The position numbers were made by a program, and so were the translations under genes. Shown here one piece after another: positions 1,343-24,326 of a DNA stretch of 53,674 nucleotides (positions are counted from its first letter, which is position 1; the number at the start of each line of letters is the position of its first letter). The DNA is from Bacteroidaceae bacterium (lineage in GTDB: Bacteria; Bacteroidota; Bacteroidia; Bacteroidales; Bacteroidaceae), in the NCBI GenBank assembly GCA_017408685.1, contig JAFQUE010000078.1, positions 1 to 53,674 on the forward strand, read 5' to 3'. The notes under the pieces were generated by a model. The model worked only from the letters and a program-made list of their open reading frames with translations. It was not told the DNA's origin and did no database searches.

Positions 1343-1679
1343 ACTTCACACGTATTTTCTTTGGCAGTTTCTTTATTACCTCCTCATAGGAATGGTCAAC
1401 AAGTCTGCAGAACAGTTCATCATTAAGCGCCGCTATATCCAGTTGGTTCCAGTAACGCTTGTTCATGTGCCATGCAGGCACTATCTGCGGGTACTTGTCA
1501 CGCAGTTCAATGGCATAGTCTGCGTCACACTTCACGCAGAACCACTTTGTGTTCTCAAGGTCGCATATTGCAAAAATCTTGTTCTCGACCCTGAATGCAA
1601 GCGTTGTCTCATCGAACGGAAAATCTTCCGTTGCATTCTCCTTACTCAAACAATATAAACGCGCGTCTTCAATATTCAT
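1332..1679 (-). CDS. MmcQ/YjbR family protein
   Basis: This 115-residue protein matches the small MmcQ/YjbR fold. It has an N-terminal 'YCLSKENATEDFPFDETTLAFRV' type segment, a central 'KWFCVKCD' strand and the 'VPAWHMNKRYWNQL' motif. Such proteins adopt a CyaY-like alpha/beta fold and are often called DNA-binding; their cellular role is not established. The gene lies between yraN (3 bases upstream) and birA (11-base overlap), so it is almost certainly co-transcribed. Length is typical. The family call is firm; function is unknown. Confidence 0.88.
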   Translation of the reverse strand: MNIEDARLYCLSKENATEDFPFDETTLAFRVENKIFAICDLENTKWFCVKCDADYAIELRDKYPQIVPAWHMNKRYWNQLDIAALNDELFCRLVDHSYEEVIKKLPKKIRVKYGL

Positions 1680-9238: not shown

Positions 9239-9553
9239 ATGAACAACGACGAGTTCGCAATGGACGACCTCGATGACGAGAAGACCATTGCATTCATACG
9301 CGAGCGCCTGCCGCAGCATTTGAAGGAAAAGTTCAGCGATGACGAGTTCTACTACTTCCTCGACACCATCTACGACTACTACGAAAAGAGCGGCATACTC
9401 GACAGCAACAACGACGAAGTCGACATAGACCTCAATGAAATTGCCAAGTTCATAGCCAAAGAAGCAAAAAAGAACAACATAGGCAATTTCGACCCCGAAG
9501 AACTCTACTTCGTAGTTGAAGGCGAGTTAGCATATAACGGTATTCTCGATTGA
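9239..9553 (+). CDS. Small acidic conserved protein
   Basis: The 104-residue protein is very acidic (MNNDEFAMDDLDDEKTIAFI...). It is predicted mostly helical, with a 'SDDEFYYFLDTIYDYYEKSGILD' stretch and 'FDPEELYFVVEGELAYNG' at the C-terminus. It has no signal peptide or membrane helix. It starts 10 bases after trxA and probably shares its transcript. I recognise it as a Bacteroidetes hypothetical often found after trxA but know no function. Its last 28 bases are one arm of a 22-bp hairpin. Confidence 0.8.
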   Translation: MNNDEFAMDDLDDEKTIAFIRERLPQHLKEKFSDDEFYYFLDTIYDYYEKSGILDSNNDEVDIDLNEIAKFIAKEAKKNNIGNFDPEELYFVVEGELAYNGILD

Positions 9554-9573
9554 GAATACCGTTATATGCTAAC
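9526..9573 (+). terminator. 22-bp perfect hairpin overlapping the stop codon
   Basis: Bases 9526-9547 are the exact reverse complement of 9552-9573, with a four-base loop. The left arm is coding sequence for the last residues of the upstream gene, and the stop codon TGA lies at the loop/right arm junction. It is probably a terminator, though no U-run follows. Confidence 0.8.
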
Positions 9574-9693
9574 GAGACTCGAGCAAACATCAGAGCCATA
9601 GGTCACGCAAAGCACCGCGTCAGTGGTGCCGCGTGGGTGGCGATTGCGAAGCAACTGATGTTTGGTCAAGGCGAGTATGCTAACGAGACTCGA
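9565..9693 (+). repeat. Direct repeat flanking element A
   Basis: ATGCTAACGAGACTCGAGC occurs at 9566 and again at about 9677, around 110 bases apart. With the shared core CCGCGTGGGTGGCGATTGC (about 9629 and 9740), it makes the gap look like two tandem copies of a unit. Confidence 0.7.
9584..9664 (+). repeat. Structured intergenic element, copy A
   Basis: Inverted arms CAAACATCAG (9584-9593) and CTGATGTTTG (9655-9664) enclose a 61-base GC-rich core. The core ends in CCGCGTGGGTGGCGATTGCG and is shared with copies B (9706-9758), C (24207-24291) and D (13552-13635, opposite strand). Confidence 0.65.
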
Positions 9694-9705
9694 GCGTCAT
9701 TTTGA

Positions 9706-9758
9706 GCAATAGTCGCACGCAGTGCAGACGAAGTTTGCACCGCGTGGGTGGCGATTGC
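9706..9758 (+). repeat. Structured intergenic element, copy B
   Basis: GCAAT..TCGC at 9706-9716 pairs with GCGATTGC at 9751-9758. The core GCAGTG...CACCGCGTGGGTGGCGA matches the other copies closely. It ends 10 bases before the stop codon of the convergent gene at 9769. Confidence 0.65.
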
Positions 9759-9768
9759 ATTCTCCCCA

Positions 9769-10464
9769 CTACTCACTCACCATTTCAACAACCCGCTGCA
9801 GCGTAAACGCCCGGTACCACGACTTTGCCTCGCTGTAGCGTTGGTTAATCTTCATAAAAGAACGCCAATAGTCACTGAACGGGCGCAAGGAAACCGTTTC
9901 CTCCCTGCCATCCTCGCGTATCGCCGTGCAACTGTTCACGCCACTGAGCGGACTTCCCGCCAAGCGGTACACCAGACTCCTCACTCCGTTCTCATCCCTC
10001 CTCAAGGCACCCTCGCACAGATTCCACCATTCAAGATACACCCCCACCGTAGGATTCCTGAACCCCGATGTTCCGGTATATGCAAGACCGCTTTCAACCG
10101 CCACCGGGGCAAGGAACATGCGGCTGTCCTGTAGAATACGTTCCCTATTCTGCAGCAGCAGAAAGGCATTATCAACGAACAGTTGTCTTTCTATGAACAT
10201 TTCAAGGTCTTCAACATATTTCTTTGAACGTCCCCTCATCTTGCCAAAGGAAAGATACCTGCCTGTGGTGTCAAATTCAAAATTATTGTAATCGACCGCC
10301 TTGCTGCCTTGCAGGCCATGAAGACCTTTCACATTTCCGTTTTCACCATTCAGTTCGTTAACGCAGGGGTAACATTCAAGTTCCCTTCCGTCGAGCAATG
10401 TTATTTTCCCTCCGGGAAAGAAAGCGCTCTCTTCATTGTAAAGTTTATCTTTGAGACCTGCCAT
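9769..10464 (-). CDS. Unrecognised 231-residue protein
   Basis: I do not recognise the family. The start MAGLKDK at 10464 is preferred: it lies 2 bases after the stop of the upstream nucleotidase gene, as in a coupled operon, while the longer frame overlaps that gene. The protein has no signal peptide or membrane helix. Visible segments are 'FFPGGKITLLDGRELECYPCVNEL' near the N-terminus, 'RQLFVDNAFLLLQNRERIL' (helical) and 'YSEAKSWYRAFTLQRVVEMV' at the end. It is third in a minus-strand operon with a deoxyribonucleotidase and a 76-residue protein. Confidence 0.75.
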   Translation of the reverse strand: MAGLKDKLYNEESAFFPGGKITLLDGRELECYPCVNELNGENGNVKGLHGLQGSKAVDYNNFEFDTTGRYLSFGKMRGRSKKYVEDLEMFIERQLFVDNAFLLLQNRERILQDSRMFLAPVAVESGLAYTGTSGFRNPTVGVYLEWWNLCEGALRRDENGVRSLVYRLAGSPLSGVNSCTAIREDGREETVSLRPFSDYWRSFMKINQRYSEAKSWYRAFTLQRVVEMVSE

Positions 10465-10466
10465 AA

Positions 10467-11129
10467 TCAATCTGCGTAATATGCCGGTTCCTCTTCCTCG
10501 CCTGACGCTTTGAGCCACTTGTTTGTGAGCGCCATCATCCTTGTTATCCTCTTATAGTCCTCGTTGTCACCGTTGTAGTTGTCATTGAGTATCTTGGAAC
10601 ACTCATCGAGCATACCAATAGTCTGCTCCACCAGAACATCGTCAATCAGGGTGTGATTTATGCTCTTGCCATTGTACACCTCGGGATCCAGCAGGTAGCA
10701 AAGTACATCATCCCACCCCGTATACATGAACGAGCCGAACTCAATCCACTCGCCGGCAAAGTCACAGGCTCCGTTCTTGGGTCTGTCATCAATGAGGAAG
10801 TCGCCATGGCACTGGTCCTTGCAATGCGTCAATATTACTCGCTTTTTAAACAGCCCACCAAAGTGCTTGGTAATCCAATTGATTTTATCGCTCCACGCCG
10901 ACGGGTTTTTCCACGGAGCCGTGGAAAGAATATACACATCGTAATGCTCGCTCAGCTTGTGCACGGCCTCTATCGCACCCGGCATAGGGTCCATAAGGGA
11001 AAATATGCCCGGAACCTCATCAAGACGACCTTCGTACTCTTTCTTTGTTTCGTCACTCAACTTGTCTATACCCGACTGGAAATCAACAAGCACACCGTCC
11101 ATGTCAAAAAACAGTTTTCTCTTGCTCAT
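10467..11129 (-). CDS. 5'(3')-deoxyribonucleotidase-like HAD phosphatase
   Basis: The 220-residue protein belongs to the HAD superfamily, NT5C type. Motif I is FFDMDGVLVDF (nucleophile Asp9, acid Asp11). Motif II is 'YILSTAPW', a lysine region 'FKKRVILTHCKDQ' follows, and motif IV is 'FLIDDRPKNG'. The family removes phosphate from deoxynucleoside monophosphates; the exact substrate here is inferred. It is the middle gene of three, 21 bases after the 76-residue gene and 2 bases before the 231-residue gene. The C-terminal extension after residue 160 is longer than in minimal family members. Confidence 0.85.
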   Translation of the reverse strand: MSKRKLFFDMDGVLVDFQSGIDKLSDETKKEYEGRLDEVPGIFSLMDPMPGAIEAVHKLSEHYDVYILSTAPWKNPSAWSDKINWITKHFGGLFKKRVILTHCKDQCHGDFLIDDRPKNGACDFAGEWIEFGSFMYTGWDDVLCYLLDPEVYNGKSINHTLIDDVLVEQTIGMLDECSKILNDNYNGDNEDYKRITRMMALTNKWLKASGEEEEPAYYAD

Positions 11130-11150
11130 AAATGTTTTTTTTATAGTGAT

Positions 11151-11381
11151 TCAATACTTTATAGTTACAAAAGCCGCAGGAAACCTCTCCTCGAGATACT
11201 CCCTGGCCGCCAGAATCTGCAACGCATTGTTCACGTTGGTTACATACAGGCGCAAGGAATTTTCTTTGGCATTATACTCCGACGATACTTCGAAATTCTC
11301 CTTTATATACTCTTGCGCAGAAACAATGTGCTTGTCATAGTTGACAATCAAATCAGCAGACATTCTTTCGTTCTCTGTCAT
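11151..11381 (-). CDS. Unrecognised 76-residue protein
   Basis: This small soluble protein (MTENERMSADLIVNYDKHIVSAQEYI...) ends 'YLEERFPAAFVTIKY'. The pattern suggests an alpha/beta fold with helices around 'KHIVSAQEYIKENF' and 'NNALQILAAREYLEERF'. A second ATG lies six codons in. First gene of the operon with the nucleotidase. No family or function is recognised. Confidence 0.65.
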   Translation of the reverse strand: MTENERMSADLIVNYDKHIVSAQEYIKENFEVSSEYNAKENSLRLYVTNVNNALQILAAREYLEERFPAAFVTIKY

Positions 11382-11512
11382 AACATGTAAATTTCAAATT
11401 ACATATATAATATAGTCACGAAAAGGAAAAAATTCAATTTTCAGAGCAACTTTTTTCAAGAGGAACTTCATTTAGCCCCTTACTGTCCTTGTAACCATAT
11501 TCGTATATAAAA

Positions 11513-11539
11513 AGCAGCACTGCCCAGGGCAGTGCTGCT
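11513..11539. terminator. Bidirectional terminator-like palindrome after nagB
   Basis: AGCAGCACTGCCC and GGGCAGTGCTGCT form a near-perfect palindrome around one base, giving a practical stem of about 10 bp. It lies 20 bases beyond the nagB stop codon (nagB reads leftward) and is an obvious terminator candidate. Confidence 0.75.
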
Positions 11540-11559
11540 ACTATACAATCATTGCTCAA

Positions 11560-13482
11560 TTACAGCAACCTTGCAAAAAGTTCTATTGCCTGATACTCGG
11601 GCAAGCCAATCTTGTTGAAGAGTTCTGCTGTGCCCTGTGTGCGCTCCTCGGCGCGCTGCCAGAACTCGCGTGCGTCCTCGCCGGGGAAAGGAACTATATC
11701 CTTCTGCGAGAGGTGGCGGAAGATTGCATGGCGCTTGCGTATGAGTTCCTCGGGACTCAGGGGCACTGCCATGTCGGCAACAGCAAGGTCCCACTCCTGC
11801 CAAGCGCCGCGGTAGAGCCATATATGGCACTCCTTTGCCCAAGGTTCGTCCTTCACCTCCTCGAATGCACGCAACACAGCCTCAATACATACACGGTGTG
11901 TGCCGTGCGGGTCTGTGAGGTCACCCGCTGCATAAATCTGGTGAGGTTTAACCTCGCGCATGAGCGCCTTTACAATCTCAATGTCATCGTCACTGAGTTT
12001 GCCTTTCTTTATACCACCGGTCTCATAGAACGGCAGATTGAGGAAGTGCGCATTAGTACGGTCGTTAAGACCTATCGAGCGGCATGCCGCGCGTGCCTCG
12101 GCACGGCGGATAGCGCCTTTGAGGTCGAGCAAACGGCGCGGTTCAGGCTCACCAACCTTTTTATTGGCAATAACCTCGCGTATTTCGTCGAACGCGTCAC
12201 CGAAACCCATCTCCTTGGCTGTATCAATGTTCTGCAGCACCACATCGTCGTACACTGCAACGTTACCCGATGTCTGATATGCGACATGCACGTCGTGTCC
12301 CTGTTCAATGAGACGGTTGAATGTACCACCCATGGAGATTACATCATCGTCGGGGTGCGGAGAGAAGATAATCACTCTCTTGGGGAACGGTGTCGATGGC
12401 ACGGGACGTGTAGAATCGTCGGCATTCGGCTTGCCGCCGGGCCAACCCGAAATTATATGCTGAATCTCATTAAACACGCGGATGTTGATTTGGTCATACG
12501 AACCCACGCGGTCGAGAAGGTCGGACAGAGAGTTCTTGATGTAGTCCTGGTGTGTGAGTTTCAGAATTGGTTTGTCTACTGTCTGACACAACCAGATGAC
12601 AGCCTTGCGTATGAGTTTGTCGCTCCACTCCTGCGGCGGCGCTATAATCCAAGGTTGCTTCACGCGTGTGAGTTCCTGCGCTGCGGCCTCATCAATCACA
12701 ACCTGAATGTCATCGTGCTCCTGAAGGAATGTTGCGGGATATTCCTCATTAACTTCACCCTCGATGAGGTCGCGTGCAATGGCTGCCTTATCCTCGCCCC
12801 ACATCATGAGAACAATCTTCTTTGCACTCATAATGGTTTCAAGACCCATTGTTATAGCCATCTTGGGCACTTCATTGGGGTTTGAGAAGAACTTGTCCTG
12901 ATTCTTGCGGGTGTTGTAACTGAGTTGCACAACGCGTGTTGTAGAGTGAGCATAACTGCCCGGTTCGTTGAAACCTATCTGACCGAGTTCGCCCACACCC
13001 ATAATCATGAGGTCTACATTGCCGTTGACCTTCTGTTCATATTGGCGGCAATACTCGTTCACTTTTTCAATGGACACTGTGCCGTCGGGGAAGTGCACGT
13101 TTGCGGGGTCAATATCGATGAATTTGAGGAAATCCTCGTTTACCCTGTGGTTACGGCTCTGTGGAGAGTCGGCAGCCATTGGATAGAATTCGTCAAGGCT
13201 GTACACCTCGACATTGGCAAAACTCACCTCGCCGGCGTTGTAACGTTTCACAAGTTCGTTGTAAAGCCCCAGCGGAGTGCGACCGGTAGAGAGACCGAGC
13301 ACAAAGGGCTTTTCACCCTTGTGGTTCTTTATTGCTTTTACCACTATGTCCGCAGCCCTCTGCACGCCCTCGCTTTCCTGGGCACAGATACGGGTAGGAA
13401 CTTTCTCGAACTTGCAGATACTTTCTATTGAAGCCAATATCGGCATTTCACCGACTTTGGGAAGTACAAAATTAGGATTCAT
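11560..13482 (-). CDS. nagB: Glucosamine-6-phosphate deaminase fused to a PIG-L/LmbE domain
   Basis: The 640-residue protein has two parts. Residues 30-300 are a NagB-type deaminase that converts glucosamine-6-phosphate to fructose-6-phosphate and ammonia: GLSTGRTPLGLYNELVK, 'SLDEFYPM', 'GVGELGQIGFNEPGS'. From about 365 the PIG-L deacetylase fold starts with FSPHPDDDVISMGG, a zinc-site His-Pro-Asp-Asp, and 'DPHGTHR' later. The fusion is known in Bacteroidetes, where the second domain's substrate is unclear; an N-acetyl-glucosamine derivative would fit. It is the last gene of the sulfatase/anSME run, separated by element D. Confidence 0.92.
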   Translation of the reverse strand: MNPNFVLPKVGEMPILASIESICKFEKVPTRICAQESEGVQRAADIVVKAIKNHKGEKPFVLGLSTGRTPLGLYNELVKRYNAGEVSFANVEVYSLDEFYPMAADSPQSRNHRVNEDFLKFIDIDPANVHFPDGTVSIEKVNEYCRQYEQKVNGNVDLMIMGVGELGQIGFNEPGSYAHSTTRVVQLSYNTRKNQDKFFSNPNEVPKMAITMGLETIMSAKKIVLMMWGEDKAAIARDLIEGEVNEEYPATFLQEHDDIQVVIDEAAAQELTRVKQPWIIAPPQEWSDKLIRKAVIWLCQTVDKPILKLTHQDYIKNSLSDLLDRVGSYDQINIRVFNEIQHIISGWPGGKPNADDSTRPVPSTPFPKRVIIFSPHPDDDVISMGGTFNRLIEQGHDVHVAYQTSGNVAVYDDVVLQNIDTAKEMGFGDAFDEIREVIANKKVGEPEPRRLLDLKGAIRRAEARAACRSIGLNDRTNAHFLNLPFYETGGIKKGKLSDDDIEIVKALMREVKPHQIYAAGDLTDPHGTHRVCIEAVLRAFEEVKDEPWAKECHIWLYRGAWQEWDLAVADMAVPLSPEELIRKRHAIFRHLSQKDIVPFPGEDAREFWQRAEERTQGTAELFNKIGLPEYQAIELFARLL

Positions 13483-13551
13483 AATTTTTAATTTTTTGGT
13501 TGTTAGTTATTTAGTAAGTTTATATTTCAGTTTTAACTTTTCATCTTTCCG

Positions 13552-13635
13552 CTTTGACAACGCCGTCTTTTCGCAACCCGCAGGGCGTGACCTTGCCACG
13601 CAGCCTGCGACCTGTTGCTGCCGGCGTTATCGAAG
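13552..13635 (-). repeat. Structured intergenic element, copy D
   Basis: Read on the minus strand, CTTCGATAACGCCG (13635-13622) pairs with CGGCGTTGTCAAAG (13565-13552), 12 of 14 positions. The arm includes the last codons and TAA stop of the upstream sulfatase-maturase gene. The core reads GCGTGGCAAGGTCACGCC then GCGGGTTGCGAAAAG and aligns with copy C nearly base for base. Confidence 0.7.
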
Positions 13636-14883
13636 CCTGTGGCTTTCACCTTTCATCACCCCTGCTGCGGGTTCTCCCTTTTCAATGAGAGTCTTCATAC
13701 GCCGCATATATGGGTCGGTGTGGCGGAAGAACATCTTGTAGCCCTCGCACAGCACATTCATATACGGTTCGCCATTCCTTGCATAGGCAAAACGGTGCTT
13801 GGGGCACTCGCCATGGCACAGGAAGTAGTAGTTGCAGCGCTTGCACTCCATGGGGAGGGCGTCGCGCTTGTCGCGCCCGAAGGACTGCTGTTCCTCACTG
13901 CGGTACATGTCGACAAGTTCACCTTCCATAATGTTTCCGAGGCGGTATTCGGGATAGACAAAGTGGTCACACGAATAGACATCGCCGTTGTGCTCCACCA
14001 CCATACCGTCGCCACAGATTTCGCCGAATGCACACAGCGGAGGTTGCACACCGCACCAGTTGGCAAGTGTAACATCGAACAACTGCACAAAACAGTTGCC
14101 CACATCGCTCCTCACCCATTCGTCGAACACATCGCACATGAACTGCCCGTAACCTTTTGAAGACACCGACCATGGAGCCTCAACAGCGTCCTCCTCGTCG
14201 GGCGATACAATGAGCGGGCGCTTGCCGGGACGCTGGCGCACATACTCAACCACCGGCAGGAACTGCATGTAAGGGTTCAGCGCGCGCAGGAACCTGTACA
14301 CCTCGGCACCTCGACCCTCGCTGCGGGCGTTCACGGTGGAGAGGATATTGAACTCGGTACCTGTACGCGTCATCAGTTCAACAGTCTTCATCACCCTTGC
14401 GAATGTGGGAGCGCCGCCGCAATCGTGGCGGAAAGCGTCGTGTATATCTTCGGGGCCGTCGAGCGAGAGCCCTACAAGGAAATTGTTCTCCTTGAAGAAA
14501 CTGCACCACTCTTCGTTGACAAGGATTCCGTTTGTCTGCAGGGTATTCTCAATGACCTTGTCACCGGCATACTTTTTCTGCAGTTCCATAGCCTTGCGGA
14601 AGAACGGAAGGCCGGCCATGAGAGGTTCGCCGCCGTGCCAGCAGAATGTTATGTTCTGCTGCGATGCACCTTGTATATATTGCCTTATATATGTCTCCAG
14701 CAATTCCTCGCTCATGCGGGGCATGCTGTTGCCATATATTTCGCTCTTGTCGCGGTAGTAACAATAGTGGCAATCGAGGTTACAGGCCGAACCTATTGGT
14801 TTGACCATAGTGCCGAAAGCCGGGGCACGCCCCATCTTTGCGACATCACCCAAATGCAATGTATTTCTCTTGTTACTCTTCAT
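13627..14883 (-). CDS. Anaerobic sulfatase-maturating enzyme (radical SAM/SPASM)
   Basis: The enzyme oxidises the active-site Ser or Cys of sulfatases to formylglycine without oxygen. The 418-residue protein has the radical SAM cluster Cys34-x3-Cys38-x2-Cys41 (ACNLDCHYCYYRDK). It also has the anSME-typical 'FCWHGGEPLMAG' segment and a C-terminal SPASM domain with cysteines in CGVQPPLCAFGEIC, 'YSCDHFVYPEYRLGN' and 'CKRCNYYFLCHGECPKHRF'. It lies 16 bases after a serine-type sulfatase, its obvious substrate. Bacteroides homologues have been named chuR. Confidence 0.93.
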   Translation of the reverse strand: MKSNKRNTLHLGDVAKMGRAPAFGTMVKPIGSACNLDCHYCYYRDKSEIYGNSMPRMSEELLETYIRQYIQGASQQNITFCWHGGEPLMAGLPFFRKAMELQKKYAGDKVIENTLQTNGILVNEEWCSFFKENNFLVGLSLDGPEDIHDAFRHDCGGAPTFARVMKTVELMTRTGTEFNILSTVNARSEGRGAEVYRFLRALNPYMQFLPVVEYVRQRPGKRPLIVSPDEEDAVEAPWSVSSKGYGQFMCDVFDEWVRSDVGNCFVQLFDVTLANWCGVQPPLCAFGEICGDGMVVEHNGDVYSCDHFVYPEYRLGNIMEGELVDMYRSEEQQSFGRDKRDALPMECKRCNYYFLCHGECPKHRFAYARNGEPYMNVLCEGYKMFFRHTDPYMRRMKTLIEKGEPAAGVMKGESHRLR

Positions 14884-14899
14884 TATTATATAGTCTTAA

Positions 14900-16477
14900 T
14901 CACTCGGCAATGAACTGTTCCTCGCCATACTGTTTCTGCAGTGTCACGAGTTTCTCTTTCAGTTGTGCAGTCACCTCTTCGGTCCCCGCCTGACCATAGA
15001 TATTGTTGAGTTCATTCCTGTCGGCACGCAAGTCATAGAGTTCCCATACATTGTCCTCATAGAAGTGTATGAGTTTATGAGTTTCGGTGCGCACGCCAAG
15101 ATGACGCTTTACGGCATGCTCGTCGGGGTACTCATAATAGTGGTAATATATGCCGTCGCGACCGGGATTCCACTCCTCGCCCTTTAGCAGAGGCAGGAAC
15201 GAAGCACCGTGTATATCCTGCGGAACCTCGACACCCGCAAGTTCAAGGAACGTGGGGGCATAGTCGATATTCTGCACCATCTGCGGTATATCGCCCTTTA
15301 CCTTACCGCCCGGCAGGCGCGCAAGCAACGGGGTGCGGAAGGACTCCTCATACATCCAACGCTTGTCGAACCATCCATGTTCGCCCATGTAAAAGCCCTG
15401 GTCCGAAGTGTAGACGATGAGAGTATTCTCCATGAGACCGTTCTCCTCGAGATAATCGAGCACACGACCCACATTTCGGTCGACCGATGTAATCACGCGC
15501 AAGTAATCGCGCATGTACTGCTGATATTTCCATGCGTCGAGCGCCTTGCCCTCGAGCCCTGCAGCCTTGAACTTCTCTATTACCACATCGTAGTGAGCGT
15601 CCCAGACTCTCTTCTGCTCGGGGTTCATGTTGCTGTACATGCGGCGCCCCCACTCCTCAAGCGCCGGACGGCTGTGTATGGTACTGTCCTTGTCGGCAAG
15701 TTTCAGGTCATAGACAAGGTCCATGTCCTTGCTGATGGACATCTTCTGTATCTTGGCAGCCTCGCGCCCGTCATAGTTGTCATAGAATGTTGCGGGCAGC
15801 GGAAAGTTACTGTCGGCAAACAGGTCAAGGTCGCAAGTATCGGGCATCCATGTGCGGTGCGGTGCCTTGTGGTGTAGCAGCAGACAGAACGGTTTGCTGC
15901 TGTCACGCCCTGCCGACAGCCATTCAAGGGCAAGGTCGGTGGTGACGTTGGTGGCATAGCCCTCACGCTGTACCTTCTCACCGTTGCGTATGAATGTGGG
16001 GTTATAATAATCGCCCTGACCTATGAGTATATCCCAGTGGTTGAAGCCTGTGGGTTCCGAGGTCAAGTGCCATTTGCCTATTACGGCAGTCTCATAACCC
16101 TGCTGCTGCAGCAGTTTGGGGAATGTCTGCTGGCTGCCGTCGAACGACGAACTGTTGTCGGTGAAGCCATTGGCATGACTGTGCTTGCCGGTGAGCATGC
16201 ATGCACGCGACGGACCACTGATTGAGTTCGCCACGAAACTGTTTGTAAAACGCACGCCGTCGGCTGCAATGCGGTCAATATTCGGGGTGCGTATGAACGT
16301 GCTGTCATAGGCACTGATTGTCTGGTACGAGTGGTCGTCGCACATTATGAACAAAATGTTCATGGGGCCTTTGGGTTTTGCCTCTTCGCCTGCACATGAG
16401 ACCAGCATGGGCAGCACTGCGGCACCGGTAAGGGAGAGGCCCAACGCCTTTTTAGTCTTGTCAAGAATGGTGTCCAT
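14900..16477 (-). CDS. Serine-type sulfatase lipoprotein (S1 family)
   Basis: The 525-residue protein has a lipoprotein signal peptide ending VSCAG, so it should be anchored on the outer membrane or in the periplasm. Metal-site motif MCDDHSYQTIS follows. The formylglycine site is Ser87-Gly-Pro-Ser-Arg91 in NSISGPSRACMLTGKHS; being a Ser-type site it depends on the anSME encoded next door. Other visible motifs are 'ETAVIGKWHL', 'TSDQGFYMGEHGWFDK' and 'DIDGAS-like FLELAGVEVP'. The N-terminal pattern resembles the S1_11 N-acetylglucosamine-6-O-sulfatases; the substrate is inferred from that and from the neighbouring hexosaminidases. Confidence 0.9.
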   Translation of the reverse strand: MDTILDKTKKALGLSLTGAAVLPMLVSCAGEEAKPKGPMNILFIMCDDHSYQTISAYDSTFIRTPNIDRIAADGVRFTNSFVANSISGPSRACMLTGKHSHANGFTDNSSSFDGSQQTFPKLLQQQGYETAVIGKWHLTSEPTGFNHWDILIGQGDYYNPTFIRNGEKVQREGYATNVTTDLALEWLSAGRDSSKPFCLLLHHKAPHRTWMPDTCDLDLFADSNFPLPATFYDNYDGREAAKIQKMSISKDMDLVYDLKLADKDSTIHSRPALEEWGRRMYSNMNPEQKRVWDAHYDVVIEKFKAAGLEGKALDAWKYQQYMRDYLRVITSVDRNVGRVLDYLEENGLMENTLIVYTSDQGFYMGEHGWFDKRWMYEESFRTPLLARLPGGKVKGDIPQMVQNIDYAPTFLELAGVEVPQDIHGASFLPLLKGEEWNPGRDGIYYHYYEYPDEHAVKRHLGVRTETHKLIHFYEDNVWELYDLRADRNELNNIYGQAGTEEVTAQLKEKLVTLQKQYGEEQFIAE

Positions 16478-16511
16478 AGGTTTTTGTCGGTTGTTTTTCT
16501 ATAATTTGGAA

Positions 16512-16558
16512 AAAATGTCCCTGAAGTCTCAATGGAACAGAGGCTTCAGAGACATTTT
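16512..16558 (-). terminator. Terminator of the ROK kinase gene
   Basis: AAAATGTC + CTGAAG (16512-16526) pairs with CTTCAG + GACATTTT (16544-16558) with one mismatch. On the minus strand the stem runs into a T-rich tract, placing a terminator between the ROK gene and the sulfatase. Confidence 0.7.
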
Positions 16559-16584
16559 CTAATGTCATCCGGTAATCTCTATCC

Positions 16585-17550
16585 TTAATCTTTCCAGCCA
16601 AGGGCCGAAGCACCGAGCACAGCAGCGTCGGCACCGGGCAGTGAAGACTTCAGAACCTTCACCTTATCTTTCCACAGGAATACCACATTCTCGTTCATCT
16701 GCTTGCGGATTGGTTCAAGCAACAGGTCACCGGCATTAGCAAGACCACCGAAGAGGATTATTGCCTCGGGAGCCGAGAAGGCGATGAAGTTGCAGAAAGC
16801 GTCACCAAGCACCTTGCCTGTAAACTCAAATATTTCGTTTGCGAGTTTGTCGCCCTGCATTGCTGCATCGAAGAGCATTTTAGATGTAAGTTCGTTCATG
16901 CATATCTCGCGCAAAGAACTTGGAGTATCACGCTCTACCAGCCATTTTTTTGCAGTGCGCACGATACCGGTAGCCGAAGCATAGGTCTCAAGACAGTCTG
17001 TTCTGCCGCAACCGCATGCACGACCCTCAATCACGGGCGATGTAGTGTGACCCAATTCGCCGGCAAAACCGTCGTGACCGTAGATGAGTTGACCGTTGGC
17101 AACAACACCGCTGCCCACACCTGTACCCAAAGTGATGTACACAAAATCCTTCATGCCCTGCGCAACACCATACTTCATTTCACCTATGGCAGCAGCGTTG
17201 GCGTCATTGGTAACCTTGGTAACAAGCCCTGTCTTCTTCTCTATGAGCCAGCCCAGGGGCACGATTCCCTTCCATGGGAGGTTGGCGGCATTCACTATCT
17301 CGCCGGTATAGTAGTTTGCCATAGGAGCACCGATACCCACGCCTTCGAGTTTACCGGCGCAACCGTTTTCTTCGGCAAGTCTCTTTATAACCGCTGCAAT
17401 AGAGTCGGTATACTCCTCGATGTCAGGGTGTGCCTGAGTCTTGATTGAATCATCCTTTGCCAGAATGTGCCCTTTTGCGTCCACAAGACCTATCACGGTA
17501 TTTGTACCGCCAAGGTCAATTCCAATTACATACTTTTCGCTCATGTTCAT
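16585..17550 (-). CDS. ROK-family sugar kinase (glucokinase-like)
   Basis: The 321-residue protein begins with the ATP-binding motif GIDLGGTNTVIGLVD. It carries the ROK zinc signature GRACGCGRTDCLETYAS and the catalytic 'ANDANAAAIGE' aspartate region. No DNA-binding domain is present, so it is a kinase and not a ROK repressor. The family includes glucokinases and N-acetylglucosamine or N-acetylmannosamine kinases. The context favours an amino sugar, but the sequence reads as glucokinase-like. A start two codons later (17544) is equally possible. It is divergent from the GH20 gene. Confidence 0.88.
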   Translation of the reverse strand: MNMSEKYVIGIDLGGTNTVIGLVDAKGHILAKDDSIKTQAHPDIEEYTDSIAAVIKRLAEENGCAGKLEGVGIGAPMANYYTGEIVNAANLPWKGIVPLGWLIEKKTGLVTKVTNDANAAAIGEMKYGVAQGMKDFVYITLGTGVGSGVVANGQLIYGHDGFAGELGHTTSPVIEGRACGCGRTDCLETYASATGIVRTAKKWLVERDTPSSLREICMNELTSKMLFDAAMQGDKLANEIFEFTGKVLGDAFCNFIAFSAPEAIILFGGLANAGDLLLEPIRKQMNENVVFLWKDKVKVLKSSLPGADAAVLGASALGWKD

Positions 17551-17580
17551 ATTATTGTTAGGTTATTTTTTCTGTTTTGC

Positions 17581-17616
17581 GAATGTAAACAAAAAAAACC
17601 ACTTATGTTCACATTC
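17581..17616. promoter_or_regulatory. Imperfect inverted repeat in the ROK/GH20 divergent region
   Basis: GAATGTAAAC (17581-17590) and GTTCACATTC (17607-17616) are inverted copies with one mismatch and a 16-base spacer. The position between two divergently transcribed amino-sugar genes suggests an operator. A GH20 promoter element TATCTTCG lies at 17671-17678. Confidence 0.4.
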
Positions 17617-17698
17617 CGGCACATTTTTATATTTTTTTTGTTTTATCATTATTTTTTGGCAACTATTGCATATCTTCGCGTATCAAAATTAAAGAACT

Positions 17699-19348
17699 AT
17701 GCTAAAGAGACTCTTTTCGCTTACGTTTGCATTAAGCCTGTTCCTATCGGTTGCGACAGCCCAGACAAATGCAACCCCATCAATCCTTCCCAAGCCCGCA
17801 AAAATTGAGATGGGCAACAGCAACAGCCTGTTTGAACTGAACCTTGATACCAAGATTGTATGCAAATTCAACGGCAACGACGTAAAGTACGCCATTCAGG
17901 AACTCGACCGCCTGACTGTGGAAATTTTCGGCAGGAAGTTGAAGAAGACATCAAAAATCAAGGAATACAACCATATTATAATACGCAGGGACGATTCAAT
18001 CAAAGACGAAGGATACGTACTCGACATAAACCCCGAGAACATTATAATAAAAGCAAGCACCGCTGCCGGCGTATTCTATGCCGTGCAGACATTAAAGCAG
18101 ATTGTACCCGTACAGGCATATGAAACCCCTCTTGACCTCGAGCGCATTCCGCTCCCCACATTGAAGGTCACCGACACTCCGCACTTCCCCTACCGCGGTT
18201 TCATGCTCGACTGCTCCCGCCATTTCTGGGACGTGGAGACCGTGAAAGAGGTGATTGACATCCTTGCCATGCACAAGATGAACCGCTTCCACTGGCACCT
18301 CACCGAGGACCAGGGTTGGCGCATTGAGATAAAGAAATACCCCTTGCTAACCAAGATAGGCAGCCTGCGCGAACAGACAACCACCGGGCACAACGAAGGC
18401 CTTGACGGCATACCCTACGGTGGATATTATACCCAAAAAGAGATAAAGGAAGTTGTGAAATATGCCCGCCAACGTTTTGTGACCATAGTGCCCGAGATTG
18501 AGATTCCGGGACACTCGCTCGGCGCGCTCAGCGCATACCCGTGGTTAGGTTGCGAGGGAGAGAAGGGTAACTACAAGACATGGGCCTATTGGGGAGTTTC
18601 CAAGCAGATTGCCTGTGCCGGACGCGAGAGCACATTCAAGTTCTGGGAAGACGTGCTCACCGAAGTGATTGACCTTTTCCCCGGCGAATACATTCACATT
18701 GGCGGCGACGAGGCACCGCGCGACATGTGGAAGGAGTGCCCCGACTGCCAGAAGCGCATAAAGGAGAACAACCTGAAGAACGAGGCCGAACTGCAGTCAT
18801 ATGTAAACAGTCGCATTGAAAAGTTCCTGAACAGCCATGGACGCAAACTCATAGGTTGGGACGAGATTCTTGAAGGCGGTGTGAGCCAAGACGCCACTAT
18901 CATGTCATGGCGCGGCACCGAGGGAGGCATTGCTGCAGCCAAGAAGGGCAACACCGTAATCATGACCCCCGGCGCATATTGCTACCTCGACTACCGCCAG
19001 ACAACCGACCGCAAGGACGAACTTGACAGCAACGGCAGCTATGTCCCCTTGCGCAAGACCTATTCGTTCGACCCATACGACCAGTTGACCGAAGATGAGT
19101 ACAAGTATATCATGGGCGTTCAGGGCAACCTTTGGACCGAATATGTGACCACCCCCATGCAGTTGCAATACAAGGCACTGCCCCGCTTGGGCGCCATTGC
19201 CGAGATTGGTTGGAGCAACCCCGACCCGGCGACAAAGGATGTAGAGGAGTTCATTGGCCGTGCAAAGGAACTTGCACGCTACTACAATGTGTTCGGATGG
19301 AGTTTCGGACGCCACTTCTACGAAGACGGCGTGCAGGTAGGCTGGTAA
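17699..19348 (+). CDS. Beta-N-acetylhexosaminidase (GH20)
   Basis: The 549-residue protein has a Sec signal peptide (MLKRLFSLTFALSLFLSVATA) and a GH20b N-terminal domain at about 25-155. The catalytic barrel follows with 'FPYRGFMLDCSRHFWDVETV', 'FHWHLTEDQGWRIEIKKYP' and the catalytic pair Asp337-Glu338 in HIGGDEAPRD. It releases terminal beta-linked GlcNAc or GalNAc by substrate-assisted catalysis. It lacks the C-terminal sorting-type tail of the larger enzymes nearby and has no lipobox, so it should be periplasmic or soluble. It ends before a terminator at 19455. Confidence 0.94.
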   Translation: MLKRLFSLTFALSLFLSVATAQTNATPSILPKPAKIEMGNSNSLFELNLDTKIVCKFNGNDVKYAIQELDRLTVEIFGRKLKKTSKIKEYNHIIIRRDDSIKDEGYVLDINPENIIIKASTAAGVFYAVQTLKQIVPVQAYETPLDLERIPLPTLKVTDTPHFPYRGFMLDCSRHFWDVETVKEVIDILAMHKMNRFHWHLTEDQGWRIEIKKYPLLTKIGSLREQTTTGHNEGLDGIPYGGYYTQKEIKEVVKYARQRFVTIVPEIEIPGHSLGALSAYPWLGCEGEKGNYKTWAYWGVSKQIACAGRESTFKFWEDVLTEVIDLFPGEYIHIGGDEAPRDMWKECPDCQKRIKENNLKNEAELQSYVNSRIEKFLNSHGRKLIGWDEILEGGVSQDATIMSWRGTEGGIAAAKKGNTVIMTPGAYCYLDYRQTTDRKDELDSNGSYVPLRKTYSFDPYDQLTEDEYKYIMGVQGNLWTEYVTTPMQLQYKALPRLGAIAEIGWSNPDPATKDVEEFIGRAKELARYYNVFGWSFGRHFYEDGVQVGW

Positions 19349-19454
19349 GTTTCCGACAAAAGCCTAAAAGGACTAAAAGAACCGAAAAGGCAAAAAGGTC
19401 AAAGACATATTAGATTAAATCTTTATTCTATTAAATAATTTTAAGAAAAATAAT

Positions 19455-19486
19455 AGAGGCTTGTTAACAGCAAGTCTCTATTTTTG
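19455..19486 (+). terminator. Terminator after the GH20 gene, overlapping a promoter-like site
   Basis: AGAGGCTTG and CAAGTCTCT form a 9-bp stem (one G-T pair) around TTAACAG, followed by ATTTTTG. The same bases contain TTG (19461-19463) and TATTTTTG (19479-19486), but the 15-base spacing is short for a promoter. Confidence 0.65.
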
Positions 19487-19547
19487 TGACCATATATTAT
19501 ATTTATTAAACAACTGAATAACAAACAAACAACTAACCTTAATGTTT

Positions 19548-22500
19548 ATGAAAAAAATCACGACCTTCCTATGCATGTTGCTCATGGCAACGATAGCATT
19601 GGCCGACGAGCCGTTCCGCAACCACCGTTACGACTCATTCAAAGTGCTTGCGCCCGACAGCGAAAGCATTGTATTCATTGGCAACAGCATAACCGACATG
19701 CATTGCTGGCCCGAGGCATTCATCACCTCCGAGGGCAAATACCTGCCCATTGTCAACCGCGGCAACTCGGGCACCTATTCTACAGAACAGAGCAACAACC
19801 TTGAATCGTACATCGCCGGCAAACCCAAGAAGGTGTTCATGATGATTGGCACCAACGACATTGCCACAAGCGGCGGTCTCAACTTCAGCGGCGAGCAGGT
19901 GCTTTCCTATGTAAAGAGCATTGTCGAGCGCATACACAAACGCTCGCCACAGACAAAAGTGTACCTCTACAGCATTCTCAACAACAAGACAGGCAACCGT
20001 GTGGAAGCCACATGGTTGCACACCAACAAGATTGTGAAGGAGTATGTCGAGGCACAGAAAGCCGACTGGCTCAAGTACATCGACCTTTACGACAAACTCA
20101 CAGGCGTTGCACAGGGCGGTGTTTGGAGTTACGATAACCTGCACCTCACAGCAGCAGCCTATCAGGTATGGTGCGAAACCATTTGTGAGTATTTGGCCGA
20201 GGGCGAGGATTACACCGTTTCAACAGTATATCCCGCCAACACACAGAACATACAGCAGAACGGCGGCCTTGGCAGTGCCCACGGCATGCGCGCAACATAC
20301 TTCAGCGCCCTGCCCATAAGCAGCAACGACGTGTTGGTGCTTGGCGACGAGTTCATAAAGAACGGCGAGTGGCAGGAGCTTCTTGGCAACCTCAACGTGA
20401 AGAACCGCGGCACGGGCTGGGGCTACGGCGGCGACATTTCCATCACAAGTAAACTTGTTGACGCCATGTACGCAAACACAGGCGTTGAGAAGAAGGACGC
20501 AAAGGCAATCTTCATCTACACCGGAACAGGCGACTGCAACGGCAGCACAAGCATTGAGACCGTAAAGAGCAATTACAAGGCACTTATTGACAAGGTTGCC
20601 GCAAAATCGCCCACATCAAAGATTTATCTCATGGCATTGTGCCCCACAAACAACGCCACAACCAACACATCGCGCATTAAGGTGCTCAATGACTACCTTG
20701 CCACACTCGCGACAGGCAACATACGGTTCATAGACACATACACCCCGCTGCTCAACGGCAGCGTGGCCGACACAAAGTACTTCTATCCATCGAACTACCT
20801 TGGAGCCATGGGTTATGTAAAGATGGCCAACCTCATGAAAGACGCACTTGTTGCAGATTTCCCCGGTGACACATACAATGTAATAAGCGAAGCCGACGCC
20901 CAAGTGCGCCACACACAGGCAACACTGCGCAACACCCTGTCACAAGCCATTGCACGCGGTCTCATAATGGAGCGCGGGACAGCGATGGGACAGTACGACC
21001 CTGAGAAGTTGGCCGCATTCGACGCCGAACTCGAGAACGCCTACGCCCTGCTGGAAAAGGAGAGCGTAACCGAGGAGGAAGTAACCGCATGCGCGGGCAA
21101 ACTTGCCGCAGCGGTCGAGGGCGCACTCTCAATGCCTAAGGCAAGCACTGCCGACGAGGAGCACTGGTACCAGTTCACGTCACTGCGCAGCCCGGACCTC
21201 TACATTACAGCCGAAGGTGAAGCCTCAGGCGTTGCAGGCAAGGGCAACACCGCCACAGCAGCCACATCCATGTGGAAGTTCATCGACCGCGGCGACAACA
21301 CATTCGACATTGTCAACCGCAAGTACGGTTCATACCTGAACCCTGTAGCCAACTACAACACACAGATTACCACAACAAAGACAAAACCCGCCAAGGGATG
21401 GACGGTGAGTTATGCCGACACACCTTCATACTACATCATCTCATCGGGCGAAGTGCAGTTGAACCAGACAGGTTCGGGTCAGAACTTTACCATATACAAC
21501 TGGAGCAGCAGCACAAACCTCGGCAGCGACCGCGGCGACACCGGTTGCCAGTTGGCAATAGCCGAAGCGGGCGAAATCGAGGAACTGCCCACATCATTAA
21601 CATACACCGTAGACAAGAACAACGGCAACCTCTACCGCGGCACAGCAGTGAACCAGGCATGGAACAGCACCTGGAAGAGCAACGCTACCCCGCAATTGCA
21701 GTTCGGTTGCGGCACAATAAACAACATGAACTGGGAGGGCACCAACGTGCAGTTAATGACAGGAACAGCCGCCAGTGCAACATACACACTCACCGCACCG
21801 GCAGGCTACGCCATTACCGAGTACAGTTTCACATTCGCCAACAACGGACACGATGTAGGGCTTTCACTCACAATGGAGGACGGAACGGTATATACCACCT
21901 CTACCACACCGCAGGCCATAAGTGCAACAAAGAAGGCACTCAGTTCAGTGTCGTTCACACTTGCCGGAAACAACGGCAAGGGTGTTGTCCTCACAGACTT
22001 CACTGTGACAATAAAGGACGACTCTCCCGAAATGCCGGCAATAAGCACCGAGGGTGACGAGCACTGGTACTACATCACCAGCGCTTCGGCAAAGGCATAC
22101 TGCGCCGGAAAGGTCATATACCACGACGGTGAGACCGCAAAACTACGTTTCGGCGACAAGACATTCAGCGCCGACCGCGTGTGGAGTTTCTGGGAGAAGG
22201 ACGGCAAACTTGCCATAAAGAACTACAAGGGCGAATACTTCGGCACTGCCGGAGCCGGCACAGGCGGCAGCACATCATTCGGTGTCGTTAGCGAACCTAA
22301 CTACATCTACAACATACAGAGTGCATTCGGATTCTTCACCATAAAGGATAACGCCGTTGAACTCCACGCCCAAGAGGCCGGTGCAATTATCGTGCGCTGG
22401 GGTGCCGAAGAGGGTGGCGCTTCATTGTGGCGATTCGATGAGGTCGACACAAGCAACGCGCTTGCCGAACTTGCCACAACCAAGGTTGTGCAGGGCAAAG

Positions 22501-24197
22501 TGAGCACCGGTATCGGCAACGCCAATCAGGCAATCGTACGCTCCACAATACGCGTTAGCGGTCTTGAGGGCAATGTTGATTTCCAGGGTGTCAAGGGCGC
22601 ATTTGTGGGAACCGACAAGAACGATGTTGCCAACGTAAAGGCATACTTCGCCACAAACTCACGCGAACTGTTCGTTGACGCCGACAAGAAGATGACCTGG
22701 CGCGAGGAGAACGGCGAACTGTTCGGCGAACCGGTGACAATAAACAGCGACGGCACATTCACCATAACAGGCACCAGGACACTTGAACCCGGCGACCACT
22801 ACCTGTGGATTACATACGACATTGCAGAGGGCGCCAAGGAAGGCAACACCGTAGACGTTAACATCACAGCCTACACTGTAAACGGCAAGGATGTTGCCGA
22901 GAGTAAGGGTAACCCCGAGCACAGCGTAACCATCTTCCTCTCCGAGGGCGCGGTGCTCATGCCAATGGATAAGGGTTCGCTCTACTACCGCATACCGGCA
23001 ATCACAGTAACAAAGGATGGCAAGCGCCTTGTAACCCTCACCGACGACCGCAAGGGACACAACGCCGACCTTCCTTCGCACTGCTACCTTGTAGCGCAGT
23101 ACTCCGAGGACAACGGCCGCACATGGAGCGACCCTGTAACCGTTGCCGGAACATCAGAGACCGGCGGTAACTACGGCCACGGCGACGCCTCAATAGTCAC
23201 CAACCGCGAGAACGGCGAGATTGTGGGCATTATGACAAGTGCCGGCACATACGGGCACGGATTCTTTGCCGGAACAGCAGCCGAGCCCCCACGCTGGAAG
23301 ACTATCACCAGCCGCGACGGCGGCCTCACATGGGAAGCACCCGTTGACCACACCGATGACCTTTTCGGCGCCAACTGCTCTAACCCCAACACAAATACTT
23401 GGAAGAGCGGATTCTCAGGTTCAGGTGCAGCACTGCAGAAGCGTGACGGTACACTCGTTTCAAGTTTCGTAAACCGCCAGGCCGACAACAGCCAGCACTT
23501 CTACTTCTTCATGAGCAAGGACGGCGGACAAAACTGGTACGTGAGCGGCACAAGCGGTACAAGCAGTGCCGACGAGCCCAAGACACTTGAGCGCAACAAC
23601 GGCGACCTCGCCATAAGCGTACGTTCAAGCGGTTACAACTACTACAACTACACATCGGACGACGGCGCAACATGGCACTTGCCTTCACAAACACGCTTCA
23701 CAAGCGGAATCTCGGGCAACGCATGCGACGGCGAGTACATGGTATGGTGCTCAACGGTAGAAGGCAACCCATGGGACATTGCACTGCAGACACTGCCCAA
23801 CAGCGGCAGCCGTCAGAACGTGAGCATTGCCCTATCGACCGACGAAGGTGCGACCTTCGGCACCCCCAAGACCATTTGCCCAAGAGGTTCGGCCTACAGT
23901 GCGGCTGTAGTGCTCCCCGACGGCACACTGGGTGTATACTATGAGGAGAACGGAATATTCGGCGGGTACACCATGCGTTTCGTACGTTTCTCACTCTACT
24001 GGGCAAGCGACGGCAAGTACAAGTTCACTGCCGACGCCCCATTCTACCCCATCAAGTCCACCAATCCCACAGCTATTGAGGAGATAACAGATAACAGAGT
24101 ACAGAGTACAGGTGTATACGACCTGCAGGGTAGAAAAGTAGAGAACCCTTCAAAAGGTATATATATAGTAAATGGCAAAAAGTTTTTGGTAAAGTAA
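19548..24197 (+). CDS. Exported SGNH esterase-sialidase fusion (GH33)
   Basis: This is a roughly 1549-residue multidomain enzyme. A signal peptide (MKKITTFLCMLLMATIALA) precedes an SGNH esterase domain at about 40-210 with Ser47 (GNSIT), Asp196 and His199 (DNLH). A second SGNH-like domain at about 260-440 has GDEF (Glu268) where the nucleophile serine belongs and no DxxH, so it looks inactive. Two beta-trefoil-like modules ('DEEHWYQF...', 'DEHWYYI...') follow at about 540-680 and 835-990. A sialidase N-terminal domain comes next, then the GH33 propeller: Arg1148 in YYRIPAI and Asp-boxes SEDNGRTW, SRDGGLTW, SKDGGQNW, SDDGATW. The C-terminus is a sorting-type tail (YDLQGRKV...GIYIVNGKK). Likely role: removing O-acetyl groups and then sialic acid from mucin-like glycans. 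A start at 19542 is possible. Confidence 0.9.
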   Translation: MKKITTFLCMLLMATIALADEPFRNHRYDSFKVLAPDSESIVFIGNSITDMHCWPEAFITSEGKYLPIVNRGNSGTYSTEQSNNLESYIAGKPKKVFMMIGTNDIATSGGLNFSGEQVLSYVKSIVERIHKRSPQTKVYLYSILNNKTGNRVEATWLHTNKIVKEYVEAQKADWLKYIDLYDKLTGVAQGGVWSYDNLHLTAAAYQVWCETICEYLAEGEDYTVSTVYPANTQNIQQNGGLGSAHGMRATYFSALPISSNDVLVLGDEFIKNGEWQELLGNLNVKNRGTGWGYGGDISITSKLVDAMYANTGVEKKDAKAIFIYTGTGDCNGSTSIETVKSNYKALIDKVAAKSPTSKIYLMALCPTNNATTNTSRIKVLNDYLATLATGNIRFIDTYTPLLNGSVADTKYFYPSNYLGAMGYVKMANLMKDALVADFPGDTYNVISEADAQVRHTQATLRNTLSQAIARGLIMERGTAMGQYDPEKLAAFDAELENAYALLEKESVTEEEVTACAGKLAAAVEGALSMPKASTADEEHWYQFTSLRSPDLYITAEGEASGVAGKGNTATAATSMWKFIDRGDNTFDIVNRKYGSYLNPVANYNTQITTTKTKPAKGWTVSYADTPSYYIISSGEVQLNQTGSGQNFTIYNWSSSTNLGSDRGDTGCQLAIAEAGEIEELPTSLTYTVDKNNGNLYRGTAVNQAWNSTWKSNATPQLQFGCGTINNMNWEGTNVQLMTGTAASATYTLTAPAGYAITEYSFTFANNGHDVGLSLTMEDGTVYTTSTTPQAISATKKALSSVSFTLAGNNGKGVVLTDFTVTIKDDSPEMPAISTEGDEHWYYITSASAKAYCAGKVIYHDGETAKLRFGDKTFSADRVWSFWEKDGKLAIKNYKGEYFGTAGAGTGGSTSFGVVSEPNYIYNIQSAFGFFTIKDNAVELHAQEAGAIIVRWGAEEGGASLWRFDEVDTSNALAELATTKVVQGKVSTGIGNANQAIVRSTIRVSGLEGNVDFQGVKGAFVGTDKNDVANVKAYFATNSRELFVDADKKMTWREENGELFGEPVTINSDGTFTITGTRTLEPGDHYLWITYDIAEGAKEGNTVDVNITAYTVNGKDVAESKGNPEHSVTIFLSEGAVLMPMDKGSLYYRIPAITVTKDGKRLVTLTDDRKGHNADLPSHCYLVAQYSEDNGRTWSDPVTVAGTSETGGNYGHGDASIVTNRENGEIVGIMTSAGTYGHGFFAGTAAEPPRWKTITSRDGGLTWEAPVDHTDDLFGANCSNPNTNTWKSGFSGSGAALQKRDGTLVSSFVNRQADNSQHFYFFMSKDGGQNWYVSGTSGTSSADEPKTLERNNGDLAISVRSSGYNYYNYTSDDGATWHLPSQTRFTSGISGNACDGEYMVWCSTVEGNPWDIALQTLPNSGSRQNVSIALSTDEGATFGTPKTICPRGSAYSAAVVLPDGTLGVYYEENGIFGGYTMRFVRFSLYWASDGKYKFTADAPFYPIKSTNPTAIEEITDNRVQSTGVYDLQGRKVENPSKGIYIVNGKKFLVK
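24082..24109 (+). repeat. Four heptamers in the linker before the sialidase tail
   Basis: AGATAAC, AGATAAC, AGAGTAC, AGAGTAC are consecutive. They encode the linker ITDNRVQST just before the YDLQGR tail. Related heptamers occur at 24363-24395 and inside feoB. Confidence 0.75.
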
Positions 24198-24209
24198 ATA
24201 CCAAAAACT
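24181..24209 (+). terminator. Hairpin overlapping the sialidase stop codon
   Basis: AGTTTTTGGTA (24181-24191) pairs with TACCAAAAACT (24199-24209). The left arm is coding and the stop codon lies in the seven-base loop. Confidence 0.65.
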
Positions 24210-24291
24210 CGACAAAGCCTACAGCAATTGGTCGTGCGCAGTGTGGCGCAAGTCACACCGCACGGGTTGCGAAAAGTAGGCTTTGTCAAGT
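24207..24291 (+). repeat. Structured intergenic element, copy C
   Basis: Arms 24207-24222 (AACTCGACAAAGCCTAC region) and 24276-24291 pair over about 16 bp with one mismatch. The 53-base core GGTCGTGCGCAGTG...CACACCGCACGGGTTGCGAAAAG matches copies A, B and D. Confidence 0.7.
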
Positions 24292-24326
24292 TGATAATAA
24301 GATAAGGTTTTACTTCTGACACATTA

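Follow-up and report, generated by a model that had tools for sequence, protein, structure and literature searches.

A family of structured repeats behind genes of a Bacteroidaceae genus, possibly mobile and accompanied by a hairpin that can match the host gene end

The window analysed here (the whole 53,674-nt stretch of contig JAFQUE010000078.1, from a Bacteroidaceae bacterium, assembly GCA_017408685.1) contains four short structured segments, A, B, C and D, at the ends of genes. What are these segments, and how did they come to lie there? The original prediction described them as one small, seemingly mobile family, in which a conserved core forms the loop of a 3' hairpin with host-derived arms. 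We built two covariance models, R1 and R2; R1 was trained on 15 copies, A, C and D among them, and the R2 training set contained A. The results showed that all four segments lie where claimed and belong to one family of structured repeats, here named E, and that the models also found B, which was in neither training set. The features are listed below, P being a second hairpin directly 5' of E.

9526..9573, plus strand: P hairpin of A, a 22-bp perfect palindrome; its left arm is the last codons of gene 9239-9553, and the stop TGA (9551-9553) is central
9580..9669, plus strand: element A, type 2, with mini-hairpin, ending in TCAA; R2 89.3 bits at 9571-9672, R1 55.7 bits (in both training sets)
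9670..9690, plus strand: gene-tail copy (GGCGAG...) behind A, judged from its sequence to be the start of a second array unit that has lost the palindrome centre
9691..9758, plus strand: element B, type 2, with the 3' arm missing; R2 40.1 bits, E value 1.4e-10, at 9682-9791; R1 28.5 bits at 9706-9756
13554..13632, minus strand: element D, type 1; R1 97.1 bits (in training)
13633..13645, minus strand: short P hairpin of D, AAGCC-ACA-GGCTT
24181..24209, plus strand: P hairpin of C, an 11-bp palindrome around the stop TAA (24195-24197) of gene 19542-24197
24210..24289, plus strand: element C, type 1, ending in TCAA; R1 95.6 bits (in training)
24288..24292, plus strand: AAGTT, repeating 24180-24184 of the gene tail in direct orientation; its first two letters also belong to the terminal TCAA of E

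E is about 80 nt long, with the consensus ends C-GA...TC-A-A and a conserved internal loop. Type 1 (C and D) is a single long hairpin of 29 pairs, 19 of which were changed on both sides in the 15-copy alignment. Type 2 (A and B) is a three-way junction of 34 pairs, 23 of them changed on both sides, and differs from type 1 by an additional mini-hairpin within the 3' bulge. The arms covary, in support of the original prediction. Common to both types are an internal loop in which GGT stands opposite GG (AGT in some type 2 copies) and ends running from C-GA or A-GA to TC-A-A. The tail TCAA was present in 102 of 111 R1 and 48 of 51 R2 matches examined (drawn from the best 125 of 150 R1 rows and the best 62 of 107 R2 rows, duplicates removed), compared with a chance of about 8% per 18-nt stretch; in R2 matches, it was retained while its 5' partner varied. 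When folding was compared with 200 shuffles, C, A and D beat 200 of 200, with z scores of -9.2, -9.6 and -4.6, respectively (C and A including P).

Conservation was not confined to the core but extended to the outer ends of E, which means that the core is more than a loop closed by a hairpin of the host. The stem of E has conserved ends of its own, with the host-like palindrome forming an adjacent hairpin, and this part of the prediction was not supported. A similar correction applies to D, whose arm was said to contain the end of the upstream gene: the stop TAA (13627-13629) of gene 13627-14883 on the minus strand does lie within the element, but 63 nt of D recur at other loci, indicating that its arms are element sequence. 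This 63-nt core was letter-identical at C34, C44 and C79 of the genome that holds the window (the own genome), C47 carried it with the alternative letter at one ambiguous position, and two further cores had 1 and 3 mismatches. Outside the core, C34, C44 and C79 had only short flanks in common, about 20 nt on the 5' side. The copies are homologous over stem and loops, and an independent origin of the segments is not borne out.

The family extends well beyond the window. A strict pattern derived from two segments matched the own genome, a 2.25-Mb draft that is 86% complete, 13 times (12 distinct places), while the reversed pattern gave 0 matches. R1 yielded at least 68 own-genome matches at an E value of 0.1 or less, with 150 of 707 first-look candidates scored; both results are far above chance. 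Among 156 R1 matches, 150 were aligned and 141 remained after duplicate removal. Matches were found in 37 of 37 genus genomes scanned with R1 (up to 72 candidates scored per genome, making high counts lower bounds) and in 44 of 44 searched with R2, and R1 found none in 24 genomes from other families of the same order. Counts per genus genome varied from 1 to at least 82. A scan of 151 genomes of the family, under stricter scoring that loses weak matches, detected the element in 11, of which nine belonged to the own genus and two to one other genus, g54. In the pattern scan of named genomes, 38 stretches were returned; every title named a metagenome-assembled member of the Bacteroidaceae or Bacteroidales, and 27 titles indicated a ruminant gut sample. 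Tandem arrays of E were seen at contig ends in L001, L008 and L013 (C12, C46, C84), and copy numbers in the drafts are therefore likely too low.

Placement was counted from simple ORF calls in 84 clusters, 31 of which were dropped for want of a neighbour gene on one side. A sense gene lay upstream in 41 of the 53 remaining clusters; 26 of the 53, all among these 41, were within 30 nt of a stop, compared with 2.4% of random intergenic points in the same loci, confirming that copies mostly sit at gene 3' ends. Ten clusters were located between two antisense genes (random 28.8%) and two between divergent genes (random 15.9%). The host genes are unrelated and include guaA (GMP synthase), dnaG (DNA primase; the name rests on a partial protein with 247 bits against a cut-off of 284), lumazine synthase and a radical SAM protein. 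At ribH (lumazine synthase; L054, L062, L064), the last 11 nt of the gene lie within E, which appears to provide the stop codon in three species. After clustering of the proteins within 600 nt of E, the recurrent families looked by eye like orthologous host genes or secreted proteins, and no transposase was seen among these families (singletons unannotated).

A hairpin P with a score of at least 7 was present at 39 of the 118 copies, compared with 0.7% of control points; for a score of at least 4, the figures were 73 of 118 and 12%, indicating that it is common and not universal. The arms of the 27 copies with a score of at least 8 contained 396 Watson-Crick pairs, 6 GT, 1 AC and 11 others. 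P can be carried by the element, as in the guaA type 1 unit, which keeps TTTTTGCC...GGCAAAAA across species with few changes. At dnaG and gene A (9239-9553), P consists of host gene-end sequence: its left arm is coding sequence for a protein end common to E-free orthologs, in which the tail of 9239-9553 is coded alike, and its right arm is an inverted copy of the left. In 60 orthologous loci of these two genes, a gene-tail palindrome was present in 17 of 18 with E and in 8 of 42 without it (Fisher 4e-8, with related rows counted as they come and uncorrected for relatedness). Four of the latter eight (L201, L215, L230 and L233) showed a broken E by eye. The guaA panel (30 loci, 26 with E by R2) was left outside this comparison because its P is partly terminator-like.

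At dnaG, E of G020 and E of the own genome were identical at 79 of 81 letters, and the right arms of P differed save for the last five letters, each fitting its own host codons. The claim of host-derived arms thus holds in that several loci match the host gene tail, but not in its location, the host-like hairpin being a separate P 5' of E at A and C. The description of C as starting directly behind a stop-codon hairpin was accurate. There were exceptions to the pattern: in L221, E was present and P began at the stop, and in L195, L219 and L223 the arms of P differed at unmatched positions, suggesting that any rewriting of P is not instant. P as an ordinary terminator was rejected, as this partly fits guaA type 2 (a U-tract in the stem) and fails at dnaG and gene A. 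Separately, long palindromic terminators (17-26 bp) were seen at the stop without E in L205, L225, L231 and L237 and may be usual in the genus; the scan that returned them missed the stop-centred palindromes of gene A. L224 and L226 (gene A of G018 and G019) retained the outer arms and the tail copy, but a core could not be clearly made out; they seem to have arisen by internal deletion of E.

The presence of E at one gene differs between species. At guaA, the unit was present in L160, L168 and L153 and absent in L156, the site lying between the last codons and a downstream terminator-like hairpin. Where a type 1 unit stands first behind guaA, the P plus E unit measured 111-112 nt, with GAA on its left and TAA or TGA on its right in 8 of 8 loci; all eight units opened with a TAA or TGA of their own and closed with TCAA. 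The TAA or TGA behind the unit is probably the displaced old stop. Gene A of G022 (L221) had the same layout in 120 nt. The L160 unit was flanked by the direct repeat AATGAT and the L168 and L153 units by an inexact AATAAT/AATGAT; repeats this short and partly inexact would allow a target duplication, though not an exact one.

At C and A, the order is gene tail, palindrome, E and a short tail copy (AAGTT and AAGGCGAGT, respectively), and both g54 loci showed this layout by eye. Tandem arrays of E likewise contained copies of the gene tail between the E copies. At C79 of the own genome, E terminates a gene whose G032 ortholog lacks E and has a different end. At gene A, we rejected the idea that what follows E is in every case the former end of the gene, because the tail AYNGI-L/I-D (with up to a few more residues) is also found in E-free orthologs. 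The existence of E-free orthologous sites agrees with the predicted picture of a small family that looks mobile.

We also compared copies at the same locus between species. E was 82-100% identical, compared with 19-79% at fourfold sites (31 pairs; 5 dnaG and 7 guaA loci), which reflects either strong constraint or recent movement. On the GuaA tree (28 of 30 rows; L147 and L157 too short), the labels type 1, type 2 and none changed 8 times, and 16 of 200 shuffles were as low, which favours turnover; the well-supported branches forced only 3-4 changes per label. On the dnaG tree, a quick tree in which the decayed copies L197 and L201 counted as E, E changed 4 times, a number that none of 500 shuffles matched or undercut; this clustering speaks for inheritance at dnaG.

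Taking these results together, we lean, with some reserve, towards E being a non-autonomous REP/MITE-like mobile repeat at gene 3' ends, with a terminal hairpin that replaces or copies the host gene end. The mobile unit would have P as its left hairpin and the structured E as its second one, with TCAA at the end. It would land at gene 3' ends, mostly in sense orientation, with P bringing or copying the host gene end including the stop codon and the old end displaced downstream. Because P includes a stop codon, the reading frame would stay closed. The unit might move as DNA hairpins by means of a trans-acting enzyme, and the right arm of P would be rewritten from the host sequence through template switching at the hairpin, that is, quasipalindrome correction, which would make the arms look host-derived. 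Such switching would be the best explanation of the host-matching arms. In quasipalindrome mutation, the two arms of an imperfect inverted repeat are converted into copies of one another (excerpts of PMC7202029 and PMC8604942); that process runs without a mobile repeat, and for E it would act on a hairpin at the element edge.

We counted in favour of this reading the spread of the family through genome and genus, the identical 63-nt cores at separate loci, the layout of the guaA unit and its absence in L156, the match of P to each host's codons at dnaG, the association of palindromes with E, the near-complete pairing of the P arms, the 8 label changes on the GuaA tree and the retention of TCAA. 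Counted against it were the lack of Y1 and reverse transcriptase matches in the own genome (86% complete), the cross-species identity of E, for which purifying selection on a useful RNA would be another possible cause, the clustering on the dnaG tree, the few changes forced by well-supported GuaA branches, the unmatched differences between P arms in L195, L219 and L223, the short and partly inexact flanking repeats, and stop palindromes without E. A bolder version is offered only tentatively: tiny mobile elements might target stop codons and remodel the hairpin at their end on the host gene, each copy holding an inverted gene tail, and this hairpin would keep the gene intact and may be the handle for the next move. 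If mobility holds, this would be a natural case in which the hairpin arms of a repeat follow host coding sequence, and palindromes at gene ends would be traceable to an element and not to terminators. It could show how a repeat can settle at the end of a gene and leave that gene intact, and with many occupied and empty orthologous sites in one genus, the way REP-like repeats settle behind genes becomes testable.

The strongest competing explanation, which we regard as rather improbable, is that E and P are a functional 3'-UTR RNA, kept by selection on the sense transcript and spread by rare recombination. It might act, for instance, as a stability or translation-end switch, since T' (the letters just 5' of E) has two alternative pairing partners, the gene tail and the base of E. 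Such an RNA would account for the sense orientation behind stops, the covarying outer-stem pairs, the very close similarity of E between species at dnaG and guaA, and its clustering on the dnaG tree. It would also fit the excess of GU over AC in type 1 stems, with 181 against 29 cells (three fixed GU pairs excluded) and about 34 against 14 among representatives below 75% identity. This excess suggests that the strand that folds is the sense strand, either as RNA or as single-stranded DNA. However, the bias was weak in R2 matches (34 against 20 in the best 62 of 107 rows, duplicates removed), and all of these counts come from alignments fitted to the structure. Nor does an RNA function sit easily with unrelated host genes, or with counts from 1 to at least 82 per genome and a presence that varies at one gene between species. 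A mobile repeat and a useful 3'-UTR RNA may also both hold.

We consider it unlikely that E belongs to the REP/RAYT or IS200/IS605-derived elements proper, its Y1 transposase having been lost or being missing from the drafts, with the two hairpins as its ends and TCAA as the right end. Hairpins at both ends, a feature of IS200/IS605-derived MITEs, are present as P and E, and TCAA, which is conserved here, is the right cleavage site of IS608. However, Y1_Tnp (PF01797) had no match in the own genome (86% complete) and was absent from 23 of 25 scanned genus genomes, the own included, and RAYT/Y1 was rejected as the mover on this ground. One of the two matches is a RAYT-like Y1 protein at L084 1417-1950 (G004), and no E was found in the 2.6 and 3.2 kb that span the two Y1 genes (L084, L085). 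According to excerpts of PMC3733652, REP/REPIN repeats with RAYT are, like E, short and palindromic, numerous in a genome, clustered and downstream of genes, where they may supply stop codons, and they show GT pairs. Unlike them, E is 80-112 nt long, has conserved internal loops, is mostly in sense orientation, adjoins a gene-tail palindrome, and has no own-genome Y1 gene. No GTAG or CGTC tag was seen at the ends of E in alignments read by eye, and E is two to four times the size of a REP, a 20-40 bp palindrome. The suggested REP membership was not supported.

Replication accidents alone, in which hairpins provoke tandem duplication and quasipalindrome correction and homologous recombination spreads E without transposition, would explain the tandem arrays with gene-tail copies between E and the near-perfect arms of P, but are very unlikely given a guaA unit at the stop codon that is absent in L156 and given separate loci that have the same core and, for the most part, unlike flanks.

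We next looked for other movers and for known families. Reverse transcriptase (RVT_1, PF00078) had no match in the own genome and exceeded the cut-off in 17 of 44 genus genomes; E copies per genome had a median of 24 with the enzyme and 16 without (P = 0.09), and it was rejected as the mover for lack of a clear link to copy number. Phage or plasmid carriage was rejected for type 1, as its pattern had 0 matches in viral_contigs and element D had no blastn match in plasmids or phages. MITEs, including one of Porphyromonas gingivalis (PMC4596501), are, like E, non-autonomous, multi-copy and intergenic; unlike them, E has two different hairpins in place of the matching ends expected, sits at stop codons, and no parent IS was found in the search for Y1 genes. 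E also resembles integrative elements that restore a gene 3' end in supplying a replacement gene end and displacing the old one, but it codes no integrase, is about 100 nt long and uses many different protein genes. Among such elements are tRNA-targeting phages, which restore the 3' end of their target gene.

In agreement with the statement that no named family was recognised, only tRNA exceeded the Rfam threshold over the window. Seven E loci searched at an E value of 5 or less gave tRNA and four sub-threshold matches, all in L103, and none reached threshold over E; one of the four (1493-1614, minus strand) touches the edge of E. No such element appeared by title or start of abstract among the literature matches listed, a search with bioRxiv outside its scope and few subscription papers, and a term look-up in PMC2267715 gave no match.

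Two further sequence features were seen near E. Some copies (L106, L119, L124 and L131) are immediately preceded on the 5' side by a second repeat, TCATCCCGA...AGCGACGAA. In addition, the stretches at L048 1358-1744 and 2586-2616 and at L103 1264-1645 and 4146-4263 are bounded by doubled TTGACACCAGTT sites and adjoin, by eye, apparent C-terminal fragments of serine recombinases. One of these stretches holds a copy of the guaA tail with its P and E, and the arrangement looks like a cassette system.
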